From NCBI GenBank assembly GCA_945872795.1, contig CAMCAZ010000027.1, positions 1 to 44,954 of the forward strand: DNA of 44,954 nucleotides, written 5' to 3'. Both the position numbers and the translations under genes were made by a program. The stretch is from Chryseobacterium gleum (GTDB taxonomy: Bacteria; Bacteroidota; Bacteroidia; Flavobacteriales_F; PHOS-HE28). The notes beneath the pieces are model-generated. The model was not told the origin of the DNA and made no database searches. It saw only the letters and a program-made list of their open reading frames with translations. Numbering within the stretch: the stretch's first letter is position 1; each line of letters begins with the position of its first letter. This document shows positions 28,580 through 39,141 of the stretch, one piece after another.

Positions 28580-30631
28580 ATGACACGAGGCCCCTTGCGC
28601 GCTTGGCTGGAGGCGATCGCCGGATACGACGGGACAGACCTGGACCTCCTGGCCCGCCTGGTGCAGGGCATCCGGTCGCGCAGGGGCGAGGGCATCACTT
28701 CGGCCGGTCCCCGGTTCAAGGAGCTGATCGCCATCCTGGAAGGTGATCCGGCATTGCGGATCGGACTTTCCGACTACGTGCGTCGCGTCACAAAAGGGAT
28801 CCGCATCCATCGCACCCTCACTGATGCCGGTATGCCCTCTGGCGATTTCTGGCACGAGCTGAGACGGCGGTTGAGCTACAAGATCTTGCCGCCCCAGCCT
28901 GAGGAAGGCACGAGCGACCACCTGCTGGTGAACGTGTTCTTCCGAGAGCGGGATGCGGATTGGATGGATGCCCTACCGGATGCGGATTGTGAGCGACTGC
29001 TCGATCTCCTGGGAGTGATGCAGGATGATGCGTCCGACGTCCACATGCCGGAGGAACTGGTCTTTTCGGCAGAGGTGCTGGGACTTCGGATCGCCGGCCG
29101 CGCCTTCGATGAGGAGGTGATGCGCATGGTACCCGCCTACGAGAACCTGAACAACCCCTTCGTGGCCCTGGCCGATGAGATGGACGATCACATCGAACGG
29201 GTGCGCCAGGGCGGTGCATTGCGGCACGTGGACAACGAGGGTCACCGGCAGATGAAGGTGCTGCTGACCCAGTGCCACGGACTGATCGAGCAGGCCTATC
29301 GCAACACGGCGACGCTGGGCATGGGCTTCTCAGTGAACCAGCAGCTCATCACCATGGAGCGGATGCTGGAACGGCTGGAGGTGGTGCTGGACCTGCTGGC
29401 CATCGACCCTGCCCGTACGCCGCGAAGCAAACAGGTGCAGCTGTTCAAGTTGCTGGTACGGGTCAGTTCGGGAAGCACCCGCGTGCTGGGCTACATCGAT
29501 CGCTCCACACAGGTGATCGCCCGCGAAGTGACGGGCCATGCAGGTCGCAAAGGGGAGCACTACATCACCACCACCGCCGGTGAGTACGGCGCGATGTTGC
29601 GGTCGGCCCTGGGCGGCGGTGCGATCGTGGCCTTTGCCTGCATCTTCAAGGCCTGGCTTGGAACGGTGGAGGCCAGCCCTTTCGCGCATGCCATGCTCTA
29701 CAGCCTGAACTATGCATGGGCCTTCATCACCATCTACCTGCTGCACCTCACACTGGCCACCAAACAACCCGCCATGACGGCCTCGACCATCGCGGCCACC
29801 CTGGATGCCGGTCGCAGGCTCAACCCCGTGGAACGCTACGCCGCGCTCTCCGACCTCTTTGCGCGGGTTTGGCGTTCGCAGTTCATCGCATTCGTGGGCA
29901 ACGTCCTGATGGCCTTCCCTGTGGCGGTGGCCCTGGCCTATGCCTGGAACGCACTGTTCGGACCCGAACTTCTGGAGCATAAGTCGACCAAGATGGTGCT
30001 GGAACTGGACCCTTTCGCCTCCCTGGCGCTATTGCATGCCGGGATCGCCGGGGTGTTCCTCTTCCTGTCGGGGCTCATCGCCGGAAGTGTCACCAACCGT
30101 TCCATCCACGGGCGCGTGCCACAGCGGATCGCCGCTCATCCTGCGCTCAAGTTGTTCCTGTCCGATGCCAGACGCACGGCACTGGCCAACTTCTACGAGA
30201 AGCACGCCGGGGGTATCCTGAGCAACCTGTGGTTCGGCGTGTTCATGGGTTCCGTGGGCATGGTGGGAGCCTTCTTCGGCCTGCCATTGGATATCCGTCA
30301 CATCACCTTTGCCGCCGGCAATCTGGGCCTGGCCCTGGTGGGCATGGACTGGCACATGACGAGCATGACCGTGGTGATGTCCGTGCTCGGTATCGGCCTG
30401 ATCGGCTTCATGAACTTCATCGTCAGTTTCGGCCTCTCCCTGGCGCTTGCGCTGCGTTCACGGGGTGTTTCCGTGGTCGAACTGCTGCCGATCATCCTCG
30501 CGGTGTGGCGCTACTTCCTGCATTTCCCGTTGGCGTTCTTCTTTCCGCAGCGCATGGTGGTGCCAGGCGTACCGCAAAGTACCGGGGCTGGTGATCCACG
30601 CGTGACCACCCCGACTGATCACGGGCGTTGA
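28580..30631 (+). CDS. Gcr-family membrane protein, annotated elsewhere as site-specific recombinase
   Basis: A 683-residue protein that begins MTRGPLRAWLEAIAGYDGTD. The N-terminal 340 residues are soluble and helical; the rest holds about six membrane helices, including LGGGAIVAFACIFKAWLG and WFGVFMGSVGMVGAFFGLPL. This matches the Gcr (SpecificRecomb) family named after a Neisseria gene. No tyrosine- or serine-recombinase active-site motif is visible, and the many membrane spans argue against DNA recombination, so the usual name is doubtful. The start at 28580 is supported by the nearby -7-like element. It overlaps the convergent GMC gene by 13 bases. Confidence 0.8.
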   Translation: MTRGPLRAWLEAIAGYDGTDLDLLARLVQGIRSRRGEGITSAGPRFKELIAILEGDPALRIGLSDYVRRVTKGIRIHRTLTDAGMPSGDFWHELRRRLSYKILPPQPEEGTSDHLLVNVFFRERDADWMDALPDADCERLLDLLGVMQDDASDVHMPEELVFSAEVLGLRIAGRAFDEEVMRMVPAYENLNNPFVALADEMDDHIERVRQGGALRHVDNEGHRQMKVLLTQCHGLIEQAYRNTATLGMGFSVNQQLITMERMLERLEVVLDLLAIDPARTPRSKQVQLFKLLVRVSSGSTRVLGYIDRSTQVIAREVTGHAGRKGEHYITTTAGEYGAMLRSALGGGAIVAFACIFKAWLGTVEASPFAHAMLYSLNYAWAFITIYLLHLTLATKQPAMTASTIAATLDAGRRLNPVERYAALSDLFARVWRSQFIAFVGNVLMAFPVAVALAYAWNALFGPELLEHKSTKMVLELDPFASLALLHAGIAGVFLFLSGLIAGSVTNRSIHGRVPQRIAAHPALKLFLSDARRTALANFYEKHAGGILSNLWFGVFMGSVGMVGAFFGLPLDIRHITFAAGNLGLALVGMDWHMTSMTVVMSVLGIGLIGFMNFIVSFGLSLALALRSRGVSVVELLPIILAVWRYFLHFPLAFFFPQRMVVPGVPQSTGAGDPRVTTPTDHGR

Positions 30632-32232
30632 GCCAGCTGCTCTTCCAGTGACGGATGTGGGTTCCCGGGCTTGGGCGGTACCAGGCTCATGGCGTATTCG
30701 CTCAGCGCGGTGATCGTCAGGCTGGGGTTCACGCCCAGGTTGGCTGGGATGATGGATCCGTCGAGGATCCGCAGCTCCGGGTACCCGAAGGCCTCGAAAC
30801 GCTCGTTCACCACACCGGTGGATGCATCGGTCCCCATGGGACAACCGCCCAGGATGTGCGCGGTGCTGCTCATGTTGAAGAGCACTTCGGTGGTGGCGTT
30901 CAGGGCCACTCCCCCGGTCTTGGCGGCGTAGCGGTGCATCACGTCCTGGCCCACGCCGATAAAGGCGGGTACGCGGTGGTCCTTCCCGTCCACCACCTGC
31001 AACCGCCCGCCGAAGAGCCCACGTTTCCAGCGCATCGTGACGGCATTGTCCAGGGACTGCATGACCAGCAGGATGATCGAGTGGCGACCGAAGTCGCGGC
31101 GCAGCACCTTCCACACTTTGCCCGGGTGGGTGAGGGTGTTCCACAGCATGTTGGCCGCGCGCACCACGGGAGGTCCGGCACCGGCGGCCATGGTGGACAG
31201 CAGGCCCATGGCTCCCGAACCGTCCGGGTATTTCACCAGTTCGATGTGCGTGTGCTCGTCGGGTTCGAACACCCTGCTGATCGCCACGCCATGGTTCATC
31301 TTCCCCGCAATGCCGGAGATCCCGCAGAGCGATTCGCTGTTGGTGCGGAGGTTCGTACCCAGGGTGTCCGAAAGACCGGTGAGCGTGCCCAGTTCATGCT
31401 TCTGGCGCAGGAGCAGGCGCAGGGTGCCCATCACGCCGGCGCTCACCACCAGGCCCTTCGACCGGAACACCTGCCGTTCCCCGCGTCGCCATGAAGTGGA
31501 ACGCCGCGTGTGGATGTGGTAGAGGCCATCACGGTGCTCGATGCGCTCCACCAGCGTCTCGGCTTCGATACGTGCACCGAACTTCTCGGCGAACCAGAGG
31601 TAGTTCTTGTCCAGGGTGTTCTTGGCATGGTAGCGGCAGCCCACCATGCATCCGGCACATTCGGTGCAGCCCTTCCGTTCAGGGCCGAGGCCTTTGAAGT
31701 AGGGGTCAGTGGATCGTGCCGGATCACCCGTGTACACACCGATGTGATCCACGGCTTTGCAGGTGGCCTCGCGTCCCATGTCCCGCGCGATGTCCGCCAG
31801 CACCTTGTCCTCCGGCCCTACCTTGGTGTAGGCCGTGCTGCCCAGCATGAAGCGGGCAGTGGCGTAGTGTGGCATCAGTCGGGCGCGCCAGTCGCCGAGC
31901 TGCGCCCAGGCCGGATTCCGGAAGAAGGCGTCCGGGGGCATCATGTGGGTGTTCGCGTAGATGAGGCTTCCGCCCCCCACACCCGCACCGCTCAGGATCA
32001 TGATGCGGTTCAGGATATCGATGCGCTGCGGACCGAAACAGCGCATCAGCGGAAGCCAGAGGTACTTGCGGACGTTCCAATTGCTCTTGGGGAAGTCGCC
32101 GGCCTCCCAGCGTTTGCCCTTTTCCAGCACCAGCACCCTGTAGCCCTTCTCGGCCAGGCGCATGGCCGACACGCTGCCCCCGAATCCGGAACCGATGACG
32201 ATATGGTCGTACAGGGTGGGAGATGGTTTCAC
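30619..32232 (-). CDS. GMC family oxidoreductase with four-cysteine cluster
   Basis: A 537-residue flavoprotein of the cholesterol-oxidase-like GMC group. FAD binding is seen at HIVIGSGFGGS (10-20) and SGAGVGGGSL. The C-terminal part has HILGGCPMG and LDGSIIPANLGVNPSLT, the usual GMC end. Residues 189-199 carry C-x2-C-x2-C-x3-C, then YHAKNTLDKNYL, so an iron-sulfur cluster or structural metal may be bound. It probably oxidises an alcohol or sterol-like substrate; none can be named. The start is GTG at 32232 (no suitable ATG nearby), overlapping the stop of a short upstream ORF as GTGA. Confidence 0.88.
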   Translation of the reverse strand: MKPSPTLYDHIVIGSGFGGSVSAMRLAEKGYRVLVLEKGKRWEAGDFPKSNWNVRKYLWLPLMRCFGPQRIDILNRIMILSGAGVGGGSLIYANTHMMPPDAFFRNPAWAQLGDWRARLMPHYATARFMLGSTAYTKVGPEDKVLADIARDMGREATCKAVDHIGVYTGDPARSTDPYFKGLGPERKGCTECAGCMVGCRYHAKNTLDKNYLWFAEKFGARIEAETLVERIEHRDGLYHIHTRRSTSWRRGERQVFRSKGLVVSAGVMGTLRLLLRQKHELGTLTGLSDTLGTNLRTNSESLCGISGIAGKMNHGVAISRVFEPDEHTHIELVKYPDGSGAMGLLSTMAAGAGPPVVRAANMLWNTLTHPGKVWKVLRRDFGRHSIILLVMQSLDNAVTMRWKRGLFGGRLQVVDGKDHRVPAFIGVGQDVMHRYAAKTGGVALNATTEVLFNMSSTAHILGGCPMGTDASTGVVNERFEAFGYPELRILDGSIIPANLGVNPSLTITALSEYAMSLVPPKPGNPHPSLEEQLAQRP

Positions 32233-32359: not shown

Positions 32360-34045
32360 TCAGAACTGGAAGTAGATGAAAGGCACCATCTCGGCCGTGA
32401 TGGTCTGGTAGATGAGGCCGATCACCAGCACACTGATCAGGCCCATGGCCCACAAGGGAAGCATGGCGAACCACATGCGGTAGCGTTGCTTCAGGGTTTC
32501 GGGTAGCCAGTGGATCACCAGTCCGACCAGCATCAGGAGGAAAACGCTGCGGAAGCCGGTCAGTATGTCCCCCACAACGGTCAGGTCCGTTCCACCACCC
32601 AGGCTCTGGAGGATCTCATTGGCGGTCTGCATCGAATCACTGCGGAACCAGATGCGAGTGAAGGTGATGAAGGAGAAGGTGATGAACACCTTCCAGGCGT
32701 TCACCGCCCAGTGGTCCAGCTTCTCCCAAGGGCTTACGCGTTTCCAGAACTTGTAGACCACAAGGCCCAGGCCGTTGAGCCCGCCCCAGATCACGAACAT
32801 CCAACTGGCACCATGCCACAGGCCGCCCACGAGCATGGTGATCATCAGGTTGGTGTTGGTGGTGATGATGCCATGCATGGAGGGCGAGAAGCGCTGCAGC
32901 ACCACGACCAGCGCGACGATCGACAGATAGACCGCCGGCAGCCACCACCAGCCGGTGAGCAGGATGAAAGCCGCGCCGATGATGGTGAGCATGATCCAGG
33001 AGAACAGCGAAGCGCTGCGGTTGCCCCCCATGGGGATGTACAGGTAGTCGCGGAGCCAGGTGCTCAGGCTCATGTGCCAGCGTTTCCAGAACTCCCCGAC
33101 GTTACGGGCCTTGTAGGGACTGTTGAAGTTCATGGTGAGCGTGAAGCCCATGAGCAGCGCCACACCGATGGCCACGTCCGTGTAGCCGCTGAAATCGGCA
33201 TACACCTGCAGCGAGTAGCCGAAGAGCGCCATCATGGTCTCGAAGCCACTGAAGCGCAGCGGATCGGCGAACACGCGGTCGATGAAGTTCACGGCGATGT
33301 AGTCGCCGATGATCATCTTCTTCATCAGGCCGTTCAGGATCCAGAAGAGGGCGATGCCGAACTGTACGCGGCTCAGCTGGTAGGGCTTGTCGATCTGCGG
33401 AATGAAGTCCGATGCACGGACGATGGGGCCTGCCACCAGCTGCGGGAAGAAGCTGACGTAGAAGCCGAAGTCCACCACGCTGCGCACAGGCTTCAGCTCG
33501 CCCCGGTAAACATCCACCGCGTAGCTCATGCACTGGAAGGTGTAGAAGCTGATGCCCACCGGAAGCAGGATCTTGTTCTCCACGAAGTGCGCGTTCCACG
33601 CCAGGTTCGCCCATTGCGCGAAGTAGTTGATGGGCTCGAAGGTGGTGCCGAGCAGCGCGTTGATGTTCTCCACCACGAAGTGCGCGTACTTGAAGTACAG
33701 GAGCACCGCCAGGTTCACGGTGATGCTCAGGGCGAGCAGCAAGCGCTTGCGTGGAAGGTGCTGTGTCGCCGCGCTCCATAGTGCCAGTCGATGGTCCAGC
33801 AAAATGGAGAAGCCGAGCAGACCCACGAAAAAGCCGCTGGTCTTCCAATAGAAGAAGAGGCTGGCCACGAAGAGCCACGCATTGCGCAGGGACCGATCGC
33901 GGTAGATCAGGCTATAGACCACCAACACCACCGCGAAGAAGGCCCAGAAGAAGAAGCGCGTGAAGATGATCGGCTCCGATGGGTCGTAACCCAACATCCC
34001 ACCAAGGTCGATGGAGGACAACAGGTCGGTGAGCGCGAAGAGCAT
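32360..34045 (-). CDS. MBOAT family O-acyltransferase (AlgI/PatA-like)
   Basis: A 561-residue inner-membrane protein with about 10-12 helices. It contains the AlgI/DltB/PatA hallmarks: YADFSGYTDVAIG, FWKRWHMSLSTWLRDYLYIP with H324, and the catalytic GLWHGASW with H411. MBOAT proteins of this type pass an acetyl group from a cytoplasmic donor across the membrane to a periplasmic acceptor protein or glycan. It lies 5 bases after the second SGNH gene and is the last gene of the four-gene operon. Start 34045 gives the family-like N-terminus; longer starts run through the SGNH gene antisense-like sequence. Confidence 0.94.
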   Translation of the reverse strand: MLFALTDLLSSIDLGGMLGYDPSEPIIFTRFFFWAFFAVVLVVYSLIYRDRSLRNAWLFVASLFFYWKTSGFFVGLLGFSILLDHRLALWSAATQHLPRKRLLLALSITVNLAVLLYFKYAHFVVENINALLGTTFEPINYFAQWANLAWNAHFVENKILLPVGISFYTFQCMSYAVDVYRGELKPVRSVVDFGFYVSFFPQLVAGPIVRASDFIPQIDKPYQLSRVQFGIALFWILNGLMKKMIIGDYIAVNFIDRVFADPLRFSGFETMMALFGYSLQVYADFSGYTDVAIGVALLMGFTLTMNFNSPYKARNVGEFWKRWHMSLSTWLRDYLYIPMGGNRSASLFSWIMLTIIGAAFILLTGWWWLPAVYLSIVALVVVLQRFSPSMHGIITTNTNLMITMLVGGLWHGASWMFVIWGGLNGLGLVVYKFWKRVSPWEKLDHWAVNAWKVFITFSFITFTRIWFRSDSMQTANEILQSLGGGTDLTVVGDILTGFRSVFLLMLVGLVIHWLPETLKQRYRMWFAMLPLWAMGLISVLVIGLIYQTITAEMVPFIYFQF

Positions 34046-34050
34046 CGGCG

Positions 34051-35319
34051 TCAGGGACGGTACGTTTGGCGAAGGTGGTGGTCCAGGTCGTTCATCAGGG
34101 CATCGAAGAGCAGGTCGCCCAGCAGTGCGTAGCCCTCCCGCGTCAGGTGGATGCGGTCGTGCTTGGCCAGGCCGACACTTTCCCAACTGCGGATGGATCC
34201 CACACCGCCCATCACGCCCAAGGCATCCCACACAGCCACGCCCTCTTCCTGGGAGAGCTCCAGCATCACCTGGCGCACGTCCTCGGCCCGGCGGTTGACC
34301 GTCCTGCGCTTGATGAAGCTGTCCGTGTTGGTGGTGAGCAGGATGGCACAGCCCGGCGATGCGGCTCGGATGCGTTGGATGAGCTGTTGGTAGTTGGCCT
34401 TGAACCGCGCGGCCTGGAAGTCGGGGTCGTGGGCGTCGTTGATGCCGATGGAAAGGATGACGAGGTCGGGGTGCAACAGCGCCAGGTCCTCGCTGAAGCG
34501 CTGGCAGCGCAGCCAACTGTTTGTGCTGGCCCCGTTCACACCGCTCGCGTGAAGGAAGATCCCCGGGTCGTCGCTCTCCAGTAGCAGGCCCTGCAAGGTG
34601 AACAGTGCCTGGGTGCTGTCCATACGGGTGAACCGCAGATGCAGCGTGTCCGTGTAGCGGCTGAAGCGGAAGGTTGTGGCGTGCTCGTCGGGCTCGCTTT
34701 CACGCTCGATGAACAAGGTGCTGTCCGGTGACCAGGCGGTGACCGTGAGACTGCTGTCCTGGCGGTGCAGCACCTTCACCCGGTTGAAGGTGTAGCCCGG
34801 ATAGACATCGCCCCGGAAGCTCACGTTCAGTGTGGATATACTGTCGCGGGTGGTGACGGAGATCCCCGCGATCCCCAGCGTACTGCTGTCCGCGAGGTGC
34901 ACGTTGCGCACGGCCGACCAGTTGCCGGTGTACACCGGTTCATACCAGTAGGGATTGTTGCTCTTCGCCATGTTGTAGGGGAAGATGAAGCCCCTGCCCG
35001 CGCGGATCCCCGGGGCCATGGTCTGCAGGCGGTGGCGCAGCTGCATGCTCCACATGTCGGCCTGCACGTGCGACCCGCCGATGTGGACGACGTTGATCTG
35101 TCCTTCACCCTGGAACAGCAACTTGTCCATTGCTCCGTGAAGGGTTTTCCAGGAGGTGCTGTCCCCGCGCTGAACGATGGTGTTCGCAGCGTGACCGATG
35201 AAGGGAAGTTCCTTCAGCCGTTGAAGGTCCTGCGCCTGTGACCCGAATGGAAGGCACAGCAGGAACAGGCCCATGGTCCGGGCAAGGGACCGATCCCGAT
35301 GATGTCTGGATCCGATCAT
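34051..35319 (-). CDS. SGNH/GDSL hydrolase-fold exported protein (second of pair)
   Basis: A 422-residue exported protein; the signal peptide ends near residue 30 (FGSQAQ-D). SGNH blocks: block I HIGGSHVQAD with nucleophile S83 (the usual GDS reads GGS), block III LSIGINDAHD, and block V HDRIHLTREG with D388 and H391. The catalytic triad is therefore intact. Between block I and III is an inserted beta-rich region (about 110-250), as in AlgJ/AlgX- or OafB-type acetyltransferase partners. It may take acetyl from the MBOAT protein and move it to the polymer, or remove it. The ATG overlaps the upstream stop by ATGA (35316-35319). Confidence 0.85.
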   Translation of the reverse strand: MIGSRHHRDRSLARTMGLFLLCLPFGSQAQDLQRLKELPFIGHAANTIVQRGDSTSWKTLHGAMDKLLFQGEGQINVVHIGGSHVQADMWSMQLRHRLQTMAPGIRAGRGFIFPYNMAKSNNPYWYEPVYTGNWSAVRNVHLADSSTLGIAGISVTTRDSISTLNVSFRGDVYPGYTFNRVKVLHRQDSSLTVTAWSPDSTLFIERESEPDEHATTFRFSRYTDTLHLRFTRMDSTQALFTLQGLLLESDDPGIFLHASGVNGASTNSWLRCQRFSEDLALLHPDLVILSIGINDAHDPDFQAARFKANYQQLIQRIRAASPGCAILLTTNTDSFIKRRTVNRRAEDVRQVMLELSQEEGVAVWDALGVMGGVGSIRSWESVGLAKHDRIHLTREGYALLGDLLFDALMNDLDHHLRQTYRP

Positions 35320-36797
35320 GGTGCAGTGGAATGGTACTGGGCGAAGTCGTTGATGAAGGCCGTCCAGAAGAGCTCGCCCACCTTGCGTGCACCCTGTGGA
35401 CTGAAATGGATGTAGTCCGTAGCGGCCAGTGGTGGATCGGCCTCCACCCAGCTCACCATGCTGTTCCGTCCGCCCATCGCGGCATACATGTCCCAGAACA
35501 CCGCGCCCTGTGCCAGGGCGTTGGTCTTCATCGCGGTGTTCACATCCTCCAGGAAGGGTCGCGTCACGAAGAACTCTCCTTCCTTGATGCTCATGTCACT
35601 GGGGCCGATGACCATCACGGTCACTCCCGGCATGAGCCGTCTGAACCGGGCGATCTGCGCCCCCAGGAAGCGGCCGTAACCGGCCGCCTCCTCCGCACTT
35701 TTCAAGCTGGGCAGCACGTTACCGCCGAACTGCAGGATGAGCAGGTCCACGCCGAGGTCATCGTACATGCCCCGCAACAAGGCCTGGTCCATGCGCCCGA
35801 ACTCGTAGCCTGCACCACCGCGAAGGGCCAGATTGTCCATGCACACGCCTCGCTTGCTTTCCAGCGAGATGCCGAACACGTCCGGGCTGTCCGCACCGGT
35901 GAAGCGGAGTTCCAGAGCCCCCGAGGAACTGGGGAAGCGCCACTCGCGGATCAACAGCTTTTCACTGGGGGCCACCTCATCGCTGCTCACCAGGACGCCG
36001 TCCTGCCAGAGCTCCACGGTCAATGGACTGCGGTGCCAGCCGTAGTAGAGCTTGCACACCTCGTAGACCTGTGCCTTGCCATAGGACCTTTTCTCCGGCC
36101 GCAACAGCACCGAAGCGCGGTGCACAGTGGTGTCCGGCCCCACAGTGTCCGGGAGGATGGGTGTGAAGCGGGAGAAACTCCCTAGCGCGCCGAAACGATC
36201 GTGCTTCTGGGTGGGATGCTTCCGTCCCATCACAGCGTAGCGCTCCCAATTGTCGGAGAGCACGCGTTCCACGCTGTAGAAGGGTACGATGTCGGCGACG
36301 GACACCAGCCCAGGACCACTGCCACCGAACTGCATCTGCAATTTGTTCCGCAGGTAGGAGGTGATCCGGTCGCCCTCGATCTGCGAATCGCCATAGTGCA
36401 GCACACGCACCGGGCGGCTGCCCTGTCCGGCGTTCTTCAGCGTGGCGAAGAGCTCGTGCAGCACGCTCTTGTCACCCTGCGGATAGTGCAGTGCGATCCG
36501 TTCATGCAGTGGAGGCAGCTTGCTCGCATCGAACACGAAGGGTGCGCCGGGCGGCATGCTGTCCACGGTGGCGACCGCTACCGTATCAGCGGACAATGAG
36601 CTATCCGTAGGCAATGCCACGATGTCGCTGATGTCCACTTCGGCGCGTTGCTCCGGGAACAGGATGCTCTTCGGTGAAGGCATCGTGATGGTCACGCCCT
36701 CTGCCAGGGTGATGCCATCGCGCGGCCACAGCGCACCGATCGCGGCCAGCGCAAGCCCCACAGCCAACAGGAAGCCCAGTGTTTGCGCCGGTCTCAT
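35316..36797 (-). CDS. SGNH/GDSL hydrolase-fold exported or membrane-anchored protein (first of pair)
   Basis: A 493-residue protein with an N-terminal membrane anchor or signal (about 5-24) and a linker to about residue 95. Block I is LHYGDSQIEGD (S138), block III LILQFGGNVLP, block V TDYIHFSPQG with D461 and H464, so the triad is complete. A beta-rich insert is seen near 230-330. It is a paralogue of the next gene and overlaps both neighbours by ATGA, so production is coupled. With an MBOAT partner the expected role is transfer or removal of acetyl groups on an envelope glycan. Order and context fit PatB/AlgJ-like function; this is inference. Confidence 0.86.
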   Translation of the reverse strand: MRPAQTLGFLLAVGLALAAIGALWPRDGITLAEGVTITMPSPKSILFPEQRAEVDISDIVALPTDSSLSADTVAVATVDSMPPGAPFVFDASKLPPLHERIALHYPQGDKSVLHELFATLKNAGQGSRPVRVLHYGDSQIEGDRITSYLRNKLQMQFGGSGPGLVSVADIVPFYSVERVLSDNWERYAVMGRKHPTQKHDRFGALGSFSRFTPILPDTVGPDTTVHRASVLLRPEKRSYGKAQVYEVCKLYYGWHRSPLTVELWQDGVLVSSDEVAPSEKLLIREWRFPSSSGALELRFTGADSPDVFGISLESKRGVCMDNLALRGGAGYEFGRMDQALLRGMYDDLGVDLLILQFGGNVLPSLKSAEEAAGYGRFLGAQIARFRRLMPGVTVMVIGPSDMSIKEGEFFVTRPFLEDVNTAMKTNALAQGAVFWDMYAAMGGRNSMVSWVEADPPLAATDYIHFSPQGARKVGELFWTAFINDFAQYHSTAP

Positions 36798-38242
36798 GGT
36801 GTGGCGGGGATCTTGATCTTCTGCCCGGGACGGATGTCCGGACCGATGCCGTTGAACTTCATCAGCTGTTCACTGCTGACGCCAGGGTGGCGTTTGGCGA
36901 TGAGGTACAGGGAATCGCCGCTGCGGACGGTATACCAGGTGAAGGCAGCTTCCTTTGCGGCATCCGGTGCTGGCGTCAGGGCTTGAGCTTCCGGTTTTTC
37001 GTTGGCCTCCTCCTGGTCCTCGAAGCGGCTGCGTTTTGCAGGGGGCACATAGATCGTGAGCTGCTCGCCGACGTCGATGTGATCGTTCTTCAGGTTGTTC
37101 CACTTCTTCACGTCGCTCACCCGCACATTGAAGCGGGAGGCGATGCGGCCCAGATAGTCGCCGGAGCGCACCCGGTAGTAGATGGCCTCGCGCCCGTCCG
37201 GCAGCCGTTGCACATCGTCCCGGCCCTGTGATGCGTTGCTCAGGGCAAGCAGTTCAGCCTGGCGTGAACGCAGGATCGAATCGGTCAGCAGTTCCAGGCG
37301 CTGCTTGTCACCCTGGGGCAGATGCAGGCCGTGGTAAGCGGGAATGGTGGGTCCGTGCAGGACCGGGTTCATCCAGCGGAGCTGGCCGCCCGGCAGGCCC
37401 AACATCCGTTCCACCAGCACGGTCCGGAGCTCGGTGGTGGGGCGCAGGGTGTCCATCGGCTCGGTCAGCTCCACGATCAAGGGTTTGATCCCCAGTTGTT
37501 CACTGTTCGCCGAGAGGTGCAGGAAGGCCATCAGCAGGGGAAGGACCTCCTGTTCGGGGCCGTCGAAATGCGGGTACAGGCTGCGCATATCCGTGGCACC
37601 ACCGGCCCGTTGCTGGGCACGCGTCAGGTTGGCGGGGCCGCAGGCGAAGGCCATGATCGCCAGTTCCAGGGTGGCGTGGCGTGCGCGTTGGTCCTTCAGG
37701 TACCGGATGGCGGCCAGGGTACTGAGGAAAGGGTCGAAACGCTCGTCCACCCGCTCGTTCACGGTGCAACCGTAGCGCACGGCGACCGCGCGGGGAAGCA
37801 TCCAAAGGCCGGCACCGCCGGTGGTGGAGGTGGCCAGGGTGTTCATGCCCGACAGGGCCATGGGCAAATACTTTAGCTCCCTCGGCAGACCGGCCGCCAC
37901 CAGTTGGCCTTCGATCATCGGGGAATAGGGCATGGCGATCCCCAGCATTGCCCGGAACTGCTCGCGTCGGGTTTCACCGTAAAGGTCCACCAGGGCGGCC
38001 ACGCGTTCATCCGCGAACACCGGTAACGCAGGAAATTCCCGCTGAAGTGCAGGGTTGAGCCCGCTGGTGTCCATGGGGCGGATGACGCCACCGTGCGGCC
38101 GATTGCGCGCTTCCTGCAAGGCCTTGCGCACGGGCCAGGTCGTCATCAGGCTGTCGGTCCGCCAGGTGCCCTGCGCACTGACAGCGGCCGCGCAGGGCAG
38201 CAGGAACAGCACACAAAGGAAGGGGAGGAGGGACGTACGCAT
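36794..38242 (-). CDS. lytic-transglycosylase-like protein with two LysM domains, catalytic Glu missing
   Basis: A 482-residue exported protein (signal peptide 1-24). Residues about 90-210 align with the MltD/SLT lytic transglycosylase core. At the catalytic position, where the family has ES in a block like ELKYLxxxES, this protein reads ELKYLPMALS: Leu130 replaces Glu. The AYN-x-G block reads AFACGPAN (198-205), and GLWQFM reads GLWMLP. Cleavage of glycan strands is therefore unlikely. LysM domains lie at about 355-399 and 436-479, so peptidoglycan binding should persist. It is first in the operon and overlaps the next gene by ATGA. A targeting or scaffolding role in O-acetylation is inferred. 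Confidence 0.85.
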   Translation of the reverse strand: MRTSLLPFLCVLFLLPCAAAVSAQGTWRTDSLMTTWPVRKALQEARNRPHGGVIRPMDTSGLNPALQREFPALPVFADERVAALVDLYGETRREQFRAMLGIAMPYSPMIEGQLVAAGLPRELKYLPMALSGMNTLATSTTGGAGLWMLPRAVAVRYGCTVNERVDERFDPFLSTLAAIRYLKDQRARHATLELAIMAFACGPANLTRAQQRAGGATDMRSLYPHFDGPEQEVLPLLMAFLHLSANSEQLGIKPLIVELTEPMDTLRPTTELRTVLVERMLGLPGGQLRWMNPVLHGPTIPAYHGLHLPQGDKQRLELLTDSILRSRQAELLALSNASQGRDDVQRLPDGREAIYYRVRSGDYLGRIASRFNVRVSDVKKWNNLKNDHIDVGEQLTIYVPPAKRSRFEDQEEANEKPEAQALTPAPDAAKEAAFTWYTVRSGDSLYLIAKRHPGVSSEQLMKFNGIGPDIRPGQKIKIPATP

Positions 38243-38353
38243 CAGCCGATGTAAAACAACGCTTCCCCATAACGGTCTGTGACGTGCCTCCGCGTTTTTC
38301 TTCACGCAGGCCTGTTGGGGCGCGGAGCGAATTAGTCGAGGCCCACGGACATT

Positions 38354-38361
38354 TACCTTGC
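38354..38361 (+). promoter_or_regulatory. -7-like promoter element before the leader ORF
   Basis: TACCTTGC, close to TAnnTTTG, 7 bases before the ATG at 38369. Confidence 0.35.
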
Positions 38362-38368
38362 GCCCCAC

Positions 38369-38509
38369 ATGCTGCTGCGATCCCTTCTCCGCTCTTTCGT
38401 CGCCATGGCCTTGGGCTGTGCGGGACTTGCCGGACAGGCGCAGGTGCCCTATCCACCCTTCCCCCTACCGAAGACCCGACCATGTCTGAAGCCCGCAGTG
38501 ACCGTATGA
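38369..38509 (+). CDS. possible 46-residue signal-peptide leader ORF
   Basis: Starts MLLRSLLRSFVAMALGCAGL and continues AGQAQVPYPP: a positively charged start, a hydrophobic core and an AxA-like cleavage site, as in an exported protein, but it stops after 46 codons. Its TGA (38507-38509) overlaps an ATG of the FrnE-like gene (38506-38508) as ATGA. A -7-like element sits 7 bases upstream. It could be a translated leader, a remnant of a secreted gene, or a tiny secreted peptide. Confidence 0.4.
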   Translation: MLLRSLLRSFVAMALGCAGLAGQAQVPYPPFPLPKTRPCLKPAVTV

Positions 38510-39141
38510 CCGTGGAGATCTGGAGCGACGTGGTCTGTCCCTTCTGTTACATCGGGAAACGCGAGTTCGAACGTGCCCTGGAGGGCTTTGAGTTCCGCGA
38601 CAGTGTGGATGTGATCTGGCGCAGTTTCGAGCTCGATCCCGATGCACCCGTGCGCAGTGAGTTCGACATGTACGGGATGTTGGTGTCCAAATATGGTGGC
38701 ACGCGGGAGGATGCCGTGCAACGGGTGCAGGGTGTGGTGGATCGCGCACGTATCGTCGGCCTGGAATACGTCATGGACAAGGCGGTGATCGGCAGCAGCT
38801 TCGATGCGCACCGCGTCTTGCAGTTTGCCAAAACAGTGGACAAGGGCGATGCCATGAAGGAGCGGCTGCTCAAGGCCTACTTCATGGAGGGCGCCCATCT
38901 GGCGGATGTTCCCACGCTCATCCGCCTGGCGAGCGAGGTGGGGCTGGATGGCGCCGCTGTGGCCGAAATGCTCGCGTCCACGCAGTTCACCGAAGCCGTT
39001 CGCAAGGACGAGGCCGATGCCCGGCAGTTGGGTGTCCGTGGTGTGCCCTTCTTCGCGATCGATCGCAAGTTCGGGGTCAGTGGTGCGCAGCATAGTGCCG
39101 CTTTCCTCGGCGCCTTGAACCAGGCCTGGGAGGCGCGTTGA
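38506..39141 (+). CDS. FrnE-like DsbA family oxidoreductase
   Basis: A 211-residue cytoplasmic protein beginning MTVEIWSDVVCPFCYIGKRE, the standard N-terminus of the FrnE/DsbA-like family, with active site CPFC (C11, C14). The helical insert is followed by the cis-Pro loop GVRGVPFFAIDRKFGVSGAQ. FrnE proteins act as disulfide isomerases or oxidoreductases in oxidative stress. The ATG at 38506 is chosen because it fits the family and overlaps the upstream short ORF as ATGA; the ATG at 38482 would add eight residues. It converges on the SET-domain gene with a 7-base gap. Confidence 0.92.
   Translation: MTVEIWSDVVCPFCYIGKREFERALEGFEFRDSVDVIWRSFELDPDAPVRSEFDMYGMLVSKYGGTREDAVQRVQGVVDRARIVGLEYVMDKAVIGSSFDAHRVLQFAKTVDKGDAMKERLLKAYFMEGAHLADVPTLIRLASEVGLDGAAVAEMLASTQFTEAVRKDEADARQLGVRGVPFFAIDRKFGVSGAQHSAAFLGALNQAWEAR

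Follow-up and report, generated by a model that had tools for sequence, protein, structure and literature searches.

The window, a 44,954-nucleotide stretch of a Bacteroidota assembly (3.3 Mb, 102 contigs) in which four genes have SLT and five have MBOAT domains, carries a minus-strand operon of four genes that encode, in order, an MltD-like LysM protein, two SGNH proteins, and an MBOAT O-acyltransferase (Table 1). Coordinates and reading frames confirm this arrangement, with ATGA overlaps between genes 1 and 2 and between genes 2 and 3, and a gap of 5 bases between genes 3 and 4; in strand, order, and junctions it is the set of four tightly packed genes described in the original prediction. 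Pfam profiles match an SLT domain and two LysM stretches in gene 1, GDSL_2 in genes 2 and 3, and MBOAT in gene 4. Among loci from the same genus, the 4-base overlap between the MltD-like gene and the first SGNH gene is seen in 19 of the 19 examined, and on every contig of sufficient length all four genes are present in this order.

Table 1. Genes and features of the four-gene operon, with positions in the window.
Feature	Position	Strand	Basis
Gene 1: MltD-derived pseudo-transglycosylase, 482 aa (signal peptide, SLT fold, middle region, two LysM)	36794..38242	-	Pfam; AF2 model
Gene 1: SLT (GH23-like) domain without catalytic residues, residues 119-215	37598..37888	-	Pfam
Gene 1: Leu130 codon, position of the catalytic Glu (IES here in PaMltD)	37853..37855	-	alignments
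Gene 1: Ala200 codon, position of the Asn of the AYN motif	37643..37645	-	alignments
Gene 1: LysM 1, about residues 354-398	37049..37183	-	Pfam
Gene 1: LysM 2, residues 437-479	36806..36934	-	Pfam
Gene 2: Ape1b-like SGNH protein, 493 aa (GDS 136-138, GGN 358-360, DxxH 461-464)	35316..36797	-	profile, motifs
Gene 3: second Ape1-like SGNH protein (ape1c position), 422 aa (GGS 81-83, GxND 292-295, DxxH 388-391)	34051..35319	-	profile, AF2
Gene 4: MBOAT O-acyltransferase (PatA-like), 561 aa (His411 in LWHG; FIYFQF with Tyr558)	32360..34045	-	Pfam, motifs

The SLT domain of the gene 1 product scores 48.9 bits with Pfam against a cut-off of 21.3, and an AF2 model of the protein (pLDDT 88.9) matches P. 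aeruginosa MltD with Z values of 19.7 (8rhf) and 19.4 (8rhe and 8rhi), with MltF reaching 15.2. The predicted fold and the combination of SLT and LysM domains are therefore common to the gene 1 product and this lytic transglycosylase. MltD, however, has the catalytic Glu and the motif Asn, whereas the gene 1 product has neither and is fixed in an acetylation operon; alignment also places Met148 where the Gln of the GLWQ motif is expected. Alignments, Pfam, and the MltD-like predicted fold thus agree with the earlier description of a transglycosylase fold that has lost its catalytic Glu and retains two LysM domains. The missing Glu is not the product of a misread base or a shifted frame, since all 19 orthologues from the genus, and likewise 47 homologues, show the same loss. 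In an alignment of 81 homologues (47 dead and 34 intact), both the Glu and the Asn are lost from every dead protein and kept in every intact one, and the Glu position is occupied by Leu in 40 of the 47 dead proteins and by Ile, Val, Ser, Cys, or Phe in the others. Conservation over the SLT domain is 0.53 in the dead group compared to 0.73 in the intact group, with scattered groove positions in the dead proteins, which keep structural SLT positions such as G145, W147, D166, and R168; conservation of the LysM domains is equal in the two groups. The dead gene is under purifying selection (dN/dS of 0.10-0.33 over the whole gene), its SLT domain has the lowest value of any of its regions within the genus (0.156), and the reading frame is open in every sampled copy. 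Selection has therefore retained the dead SLT domain, presumably for some role other than cutting.

Both SGNH proteins resemble Ape1, the peptidoglycan O-acetylesterase. Profiles built from the first and second SGNH families find N. meningitidis Ape1 (4k3u) with E-values of 1.9e-31 and 6.1e-31, respectively; Ape1 is the only good match to either profile, and PatB is absent from both match lists. An AF2 model of the second SGNH protein (pLDDT 92.3), in which a beta-sandwich is inserted at about residues 126-260, matches 4k3u with a Z of 39.6 (2.3 A over 342 residues) and C. jejuni Ape1 (8gkd/8gld) with a Z of 35.8, the next family being at Z 17. The model thus predicts for the second protein the Ape1 fold, an SGNH core with an inserted beta-sandwich, and profile similarity suggests the same for the first. 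The columns for the catalytic Ser, Asn, Asp, and His are invariant in both family alignments. Unlike Ape1, the SGNH proteins here come as two paralogues per operon, and the hydrophobic N-terminal stretch of the first (residues 6-24) may act as an uncleaved membrane anchor, judging from its sequence; the second probably has a cleavable signal. The Ape1 family is defined by motif I, GDS(H/F), and motif VII, Dx(V/T)H, with a segment of ~100 residues after motif I in Ape1b that Ape1c lacks (PMC1199599). The first SGNH protein has the traits of Ape1b, being encoded upstream of pat and having a spacing of 222 residues between S138 and N360. The second, however, departs from Ape1c, since the 211 residues between S83 and N294 leave room for the insert, which is described as absent from Ape1c. 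Moreover, both proteins deviate from the strict Ape1 motifs, with GDSQ and DYIH in the first and GGSH and DRIH in the second, although Ser, Asp, and His are present. PatA/PatB systems in Neisseria and Campylobacter likewise pair an MBOAT that has a catalytic His and a C-terminal FxYxxF motif with an SGNH partner, but both SGNH proteins here are of the Ape1 type, and the best match to the DUF459 (PatB) profile across the genome scores only 19.6 bits against a cut-off of 27.2. The block II Gly, a usual feature of the esterases for which PatB has Ser or Asn, is an invariant column in both SGNH families, so that by this mark neither protein looks like a transferase.

The gene 4 product has a Pfam MBOAT match, scores under the NCBIfam cut-off for DltB, and matches DltB structures with an E-value of 2e-25. 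Features of the PatA type are the catalytic His in LWHG and the C-terminal FxYxxF motif in the form FIYFQF. At residue 319 the protein reads FWKRWH, which differs from the Pat signature F-W-R/N-R-W-H by one conservative change. The FxYxxF tail is present in 68 of 75 MBOATs from this genomic context, and several of the other seven are cut by contig ends. FIYFQF, however, ends all five MBOATs of the genome and does not single out peptidoglycan acetylation, and we have dropped it as proof of PatA identity for this reason. The other four of these proteins are encoded on contigs C9, C19, C22, and C31 (L170-L173), the one on C31 among capsule-like biosynthesis genes. Position in the MBOAT tree is better evidence than the tail for a link to peptidoglycan: the window MBOAT lies in a clade of Ape1-linked MBOATs, apart from the other four of the genome (support 100), including the one from the capsule-like locus. 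A grouping with unrelated exopolysaccharide acyltransferases had been named beforehand as evidence against the original prediction. Dead and intact states of the upstream MltD gene are interleaved in this tree.

Genes 2-4 are an already known kind of cluster. The OAP (O-acetylpeptidoglycan) cluster of Bacteroides and Porphyromonas has the order ape1b-ape1c-pat, and O-acetylated peptidoglycan is reported at 69% in B. fragilis and 27% in B. thetaiotaomicron, both of which have the cluster (Weadge et al. 2005, PMC1199599). In the window, and in most of the other loci, two Ape1-type SGNH genes are likewise followed on the same strand by an AlgI-like MBOAT gene in the Pat position. Because both SGNH proteins match Ape1, peptidoglycan is the likely substrate, which supports the proposal of an envelope O-acetylation operon made at the outset. 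The original interpretation is thus supported in part: the four genes are a conserved unit that may work as one machine, but the last three have the order of the already published OAP cluster. In the published Bacteroides clusters, however, the upstream gene encodes a cation-efflux transporter, and no transglycosylase-like gene is mentioned (PMC1199599). The dedicated pseudo-transglycosylase is what appears to be new, and a literature search that covered few subscription papers returned no description of a transglycosylase pseudoenzyme in an O-acetylation cluster.

Conservation of the gene order in genus loci, in Bacteroidota loci, and in a separate class sample, which the original prediction had called for, rules out a chance neighborhood. 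Among the 80 top-ranked of at least 591 Bacteroidota loci, a set whose frequencies describe the closest relatives, 48 have an MltD-like gene on the same strand upstream of the first SGNH gene, dead in 25 and intact in 23; none was detected in the other 32, in some cases because of contig ends. Since many OAP clusters have no MltD-like gene, the chemistry can do without the adaptor. A DUF5683 gene precedes 20 of the 23 intact upstream MltD genes in this same set of best 80 of at least 591 loci, but was found beside none of the 46 dead operons in which it was looked for. Most of the intact upstream genes are thus housekeeping mltD genes that belong to a parA-parB-DUF5683-mltD locus. Homologues with the catalytic Glu in the same context had been put forward as evidence against the idea, and they do occur in 23 of these 80 top-ranked loci (out of at least 591); since they belong to a lineage different from that of the dead protein, however, the idea is refined rather than refuted. 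In two loci (L067, 5975-14460, and L084, 6015-14403) the trio lies directly behind parA-parB-DUF5683-mltD, and in a third (L099, 420-7514) the OAP genes do so without the second SGNH gene, giving a collinear block that ties chromosome-partition genes and the housekeeping MltD to O-acetylation.

The separate class sample comprised 247 genomes, from which 30 profile-match loci were examined: Ape1b adjoins nine of nine dead genes compared to two of 21 intact MltD genes (Fisher p 4e-6, kinship ignored). A survey of 45 genus members places the dead gene and Ape1b in the same 21 genomes; both are absent from 24, and in no case is only one found, although these genomes are related and the co-occurrence therefore represents fewer than 45 independent events; one genome (G311) gave only a weak SGNH match. 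The 24 genomes that lack the operon raise the possibility that wall O-acetylation varies within a single genus. All sampled genomes with the dead operon and a readable paralogue have an intact MltD elsewhere, and in eight Bacteroidales genomes of this kind the intact paralogue lies behind a DUF5683 gene. No further recurrent neighbor was found beside the dead-gene operons, and a family that recurs upstream in the genus is a frame that runs antisense to one of the window's coding genes.

In the main tree, all of the dead copies fall on one side of a single branch, which spans several orders, and in a more careful tree from which long rows were left out this branch has support of 100/99. Repeated independent loss of catalysis is disfavored by the single branch in both trees. 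Nevertheless, a topology that groups the dead and the intact genes of Bacteroidales together is not rejected by an AU test (p 0.16), so that there may have been two losses. A history consistent with these observations is that the trio once lay beside mltD, that a copy stayed there and lost catalysis, and that the operon then moved as a four-gene unit.

We consider it probable, with moderate confidence, that the operon serves peptidoglycan O-acetylation and de-O-acetylation and that it includes a dedicated, non-catalytic copy of MltD as a LysM-anchored adaptor. PatA carries acetyl on its C-terminal FxYxxF tail and passes it to the SGNH enzyme PatB (PMC12148441). By analogy, acetyl-CoA would probably serve as the donor for acetylation of the MBOAT at its C-terminal Tyr558, and the acetylated tail would hand it to an SGNH partner for esterification of O6 of MurNAc, with the other SGNH protein removing it. 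Given that no PatB scores above the cut-off in the genome, one of the Ape1-type proteins should perform the transfer, and our guess assigns transfer to the first SGNH protein, which would be anchored in the membrane, and de-acetylation to the second, which would be soluble. The first is favored because its putative N-terminal anchor resembles that proposed for PatB, and because it is alone beside the MBOAT in two loci (L099 and L136). The pseudo-MltD might bind glycan via its two LysM domains and offer the inactive SLT surface as a docking face, thereby placing the acetylation enzymes where MltD-type enzymes act; it could hold the soluble esterase, or all of the operon's enzymes, at the glycan, or mark MltD sites. 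A more far-reaching version, to which we would give somewhat less than an even chance, is that an ancient pseudo-transglycosylase of single origin has become a dedicated O-acetylation subunit in several Bacteroidota orders, with a dead domain that now serves for docking or for reading the glycan and steers acetylation to MltD cut sites.

O-Acetylation of MurNAc blocks lytic transglycosylases. A dead transglycosylase kept by selection in an acetylation operon would give a direct handle on where acetyl groups are placed relative to cutting sites, and would extend to the SLT fold the theme of the dead hydrolase as regulator, known for LytM proteins. This theme also underlies an alternative that we regard as unlikely but worth serious attention, namely that the dead protein mainly regulates the housekeeping MltD, as an activator, an inhibitor, or a competitor at the same sites on the glycan, its co-expression with the acetylation genes reflecting that both restrain or time transglycosylase action. 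DipM, a LysM protein with an inactive LytM domain, regulates autolysins, and proteins of this kind act on lytic transglycosylases and amidases via the inactive domain (PMC10336132). Like DipM, the gene 1 product couples LysM to a wall-hydrolase domain that is inactive yet preserved by selection; DipM, however, has a LytM domain and targets autolysins, whereas the gene 1 product has an SLT domain and is tied to O-acetylation genes. A LytM/M23 domain as in DipM and EnvC has no Pfam M23 match in the gene 1 product, and only the way of working is being compared. The strong conservation of the dead SLT domain and the intact MltD encoded elsewhere in the sampled genomes would both suit such a regulator. 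The dead gene, however, is lost or kept together with Ape1b, while intact MltD persists in genomes that have neither; because it tracks Ape1b rather than MltD, the acetylation enzymes are its likelier partners.

It is less probable still that the operon acylates another polymer, such as an exopolysaccharide, to which, or to chitin-like glycans, the LysM protein would bind. Although the known targets of MBOAT-SGNH pairs include alginate, cellulose, and secondary wall polymers (PMC12148441), both SGNH proteins are nearest to Ape1 by sequence, the second also by predicted fold, and the window MBOAT splits from the four others of the genome. In addition, the flanks of the operon contain no glycosyltransferase or export genes, and it is an MltD-type LysM protein that recurs beside the operon. 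Finally, the notion that the dead gene is a decaying, functionless relic of mltD beside the cluster, as the widely degenerate catalytic groove and the intact MltD often found at the same position might suggest, is hardly credible given the open frames, the low dN/dS (lowest in the dead domain itself), the one deep branch across several orders, and the ATGA coupling kept in the genus.

The operon is flanked in the window by a divergent DsbA/FrnE-type oxidoreductase-like gene (38346-39141, plus strand) and a GMC-type oxidoreductase-like gene (30619-32232, minus strand), each of which is a neighbor in at most one other genus member, and a few genus members have a sigma-factor-like gene after the operon. 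In five genomes (G230, G238, G411, G481, and G532, four of them in family f12), matches to intact MltD cross one or two in-frame stop codons, perhaps a sign that the gene is split or its LysM region shortened. Elsewhere in the phylum (L048-L053), the MltD-like gene and Ape1c are replaced by a small SGNH protein of ~240 aa encoded ahead of Ape1b, and in five loci that have no MltD-like gene (L090, L100, L102, L105, and L111) a gene for an acyltransferase-3-like membrane protein follows the MBOAT gene after 0-1 bases.
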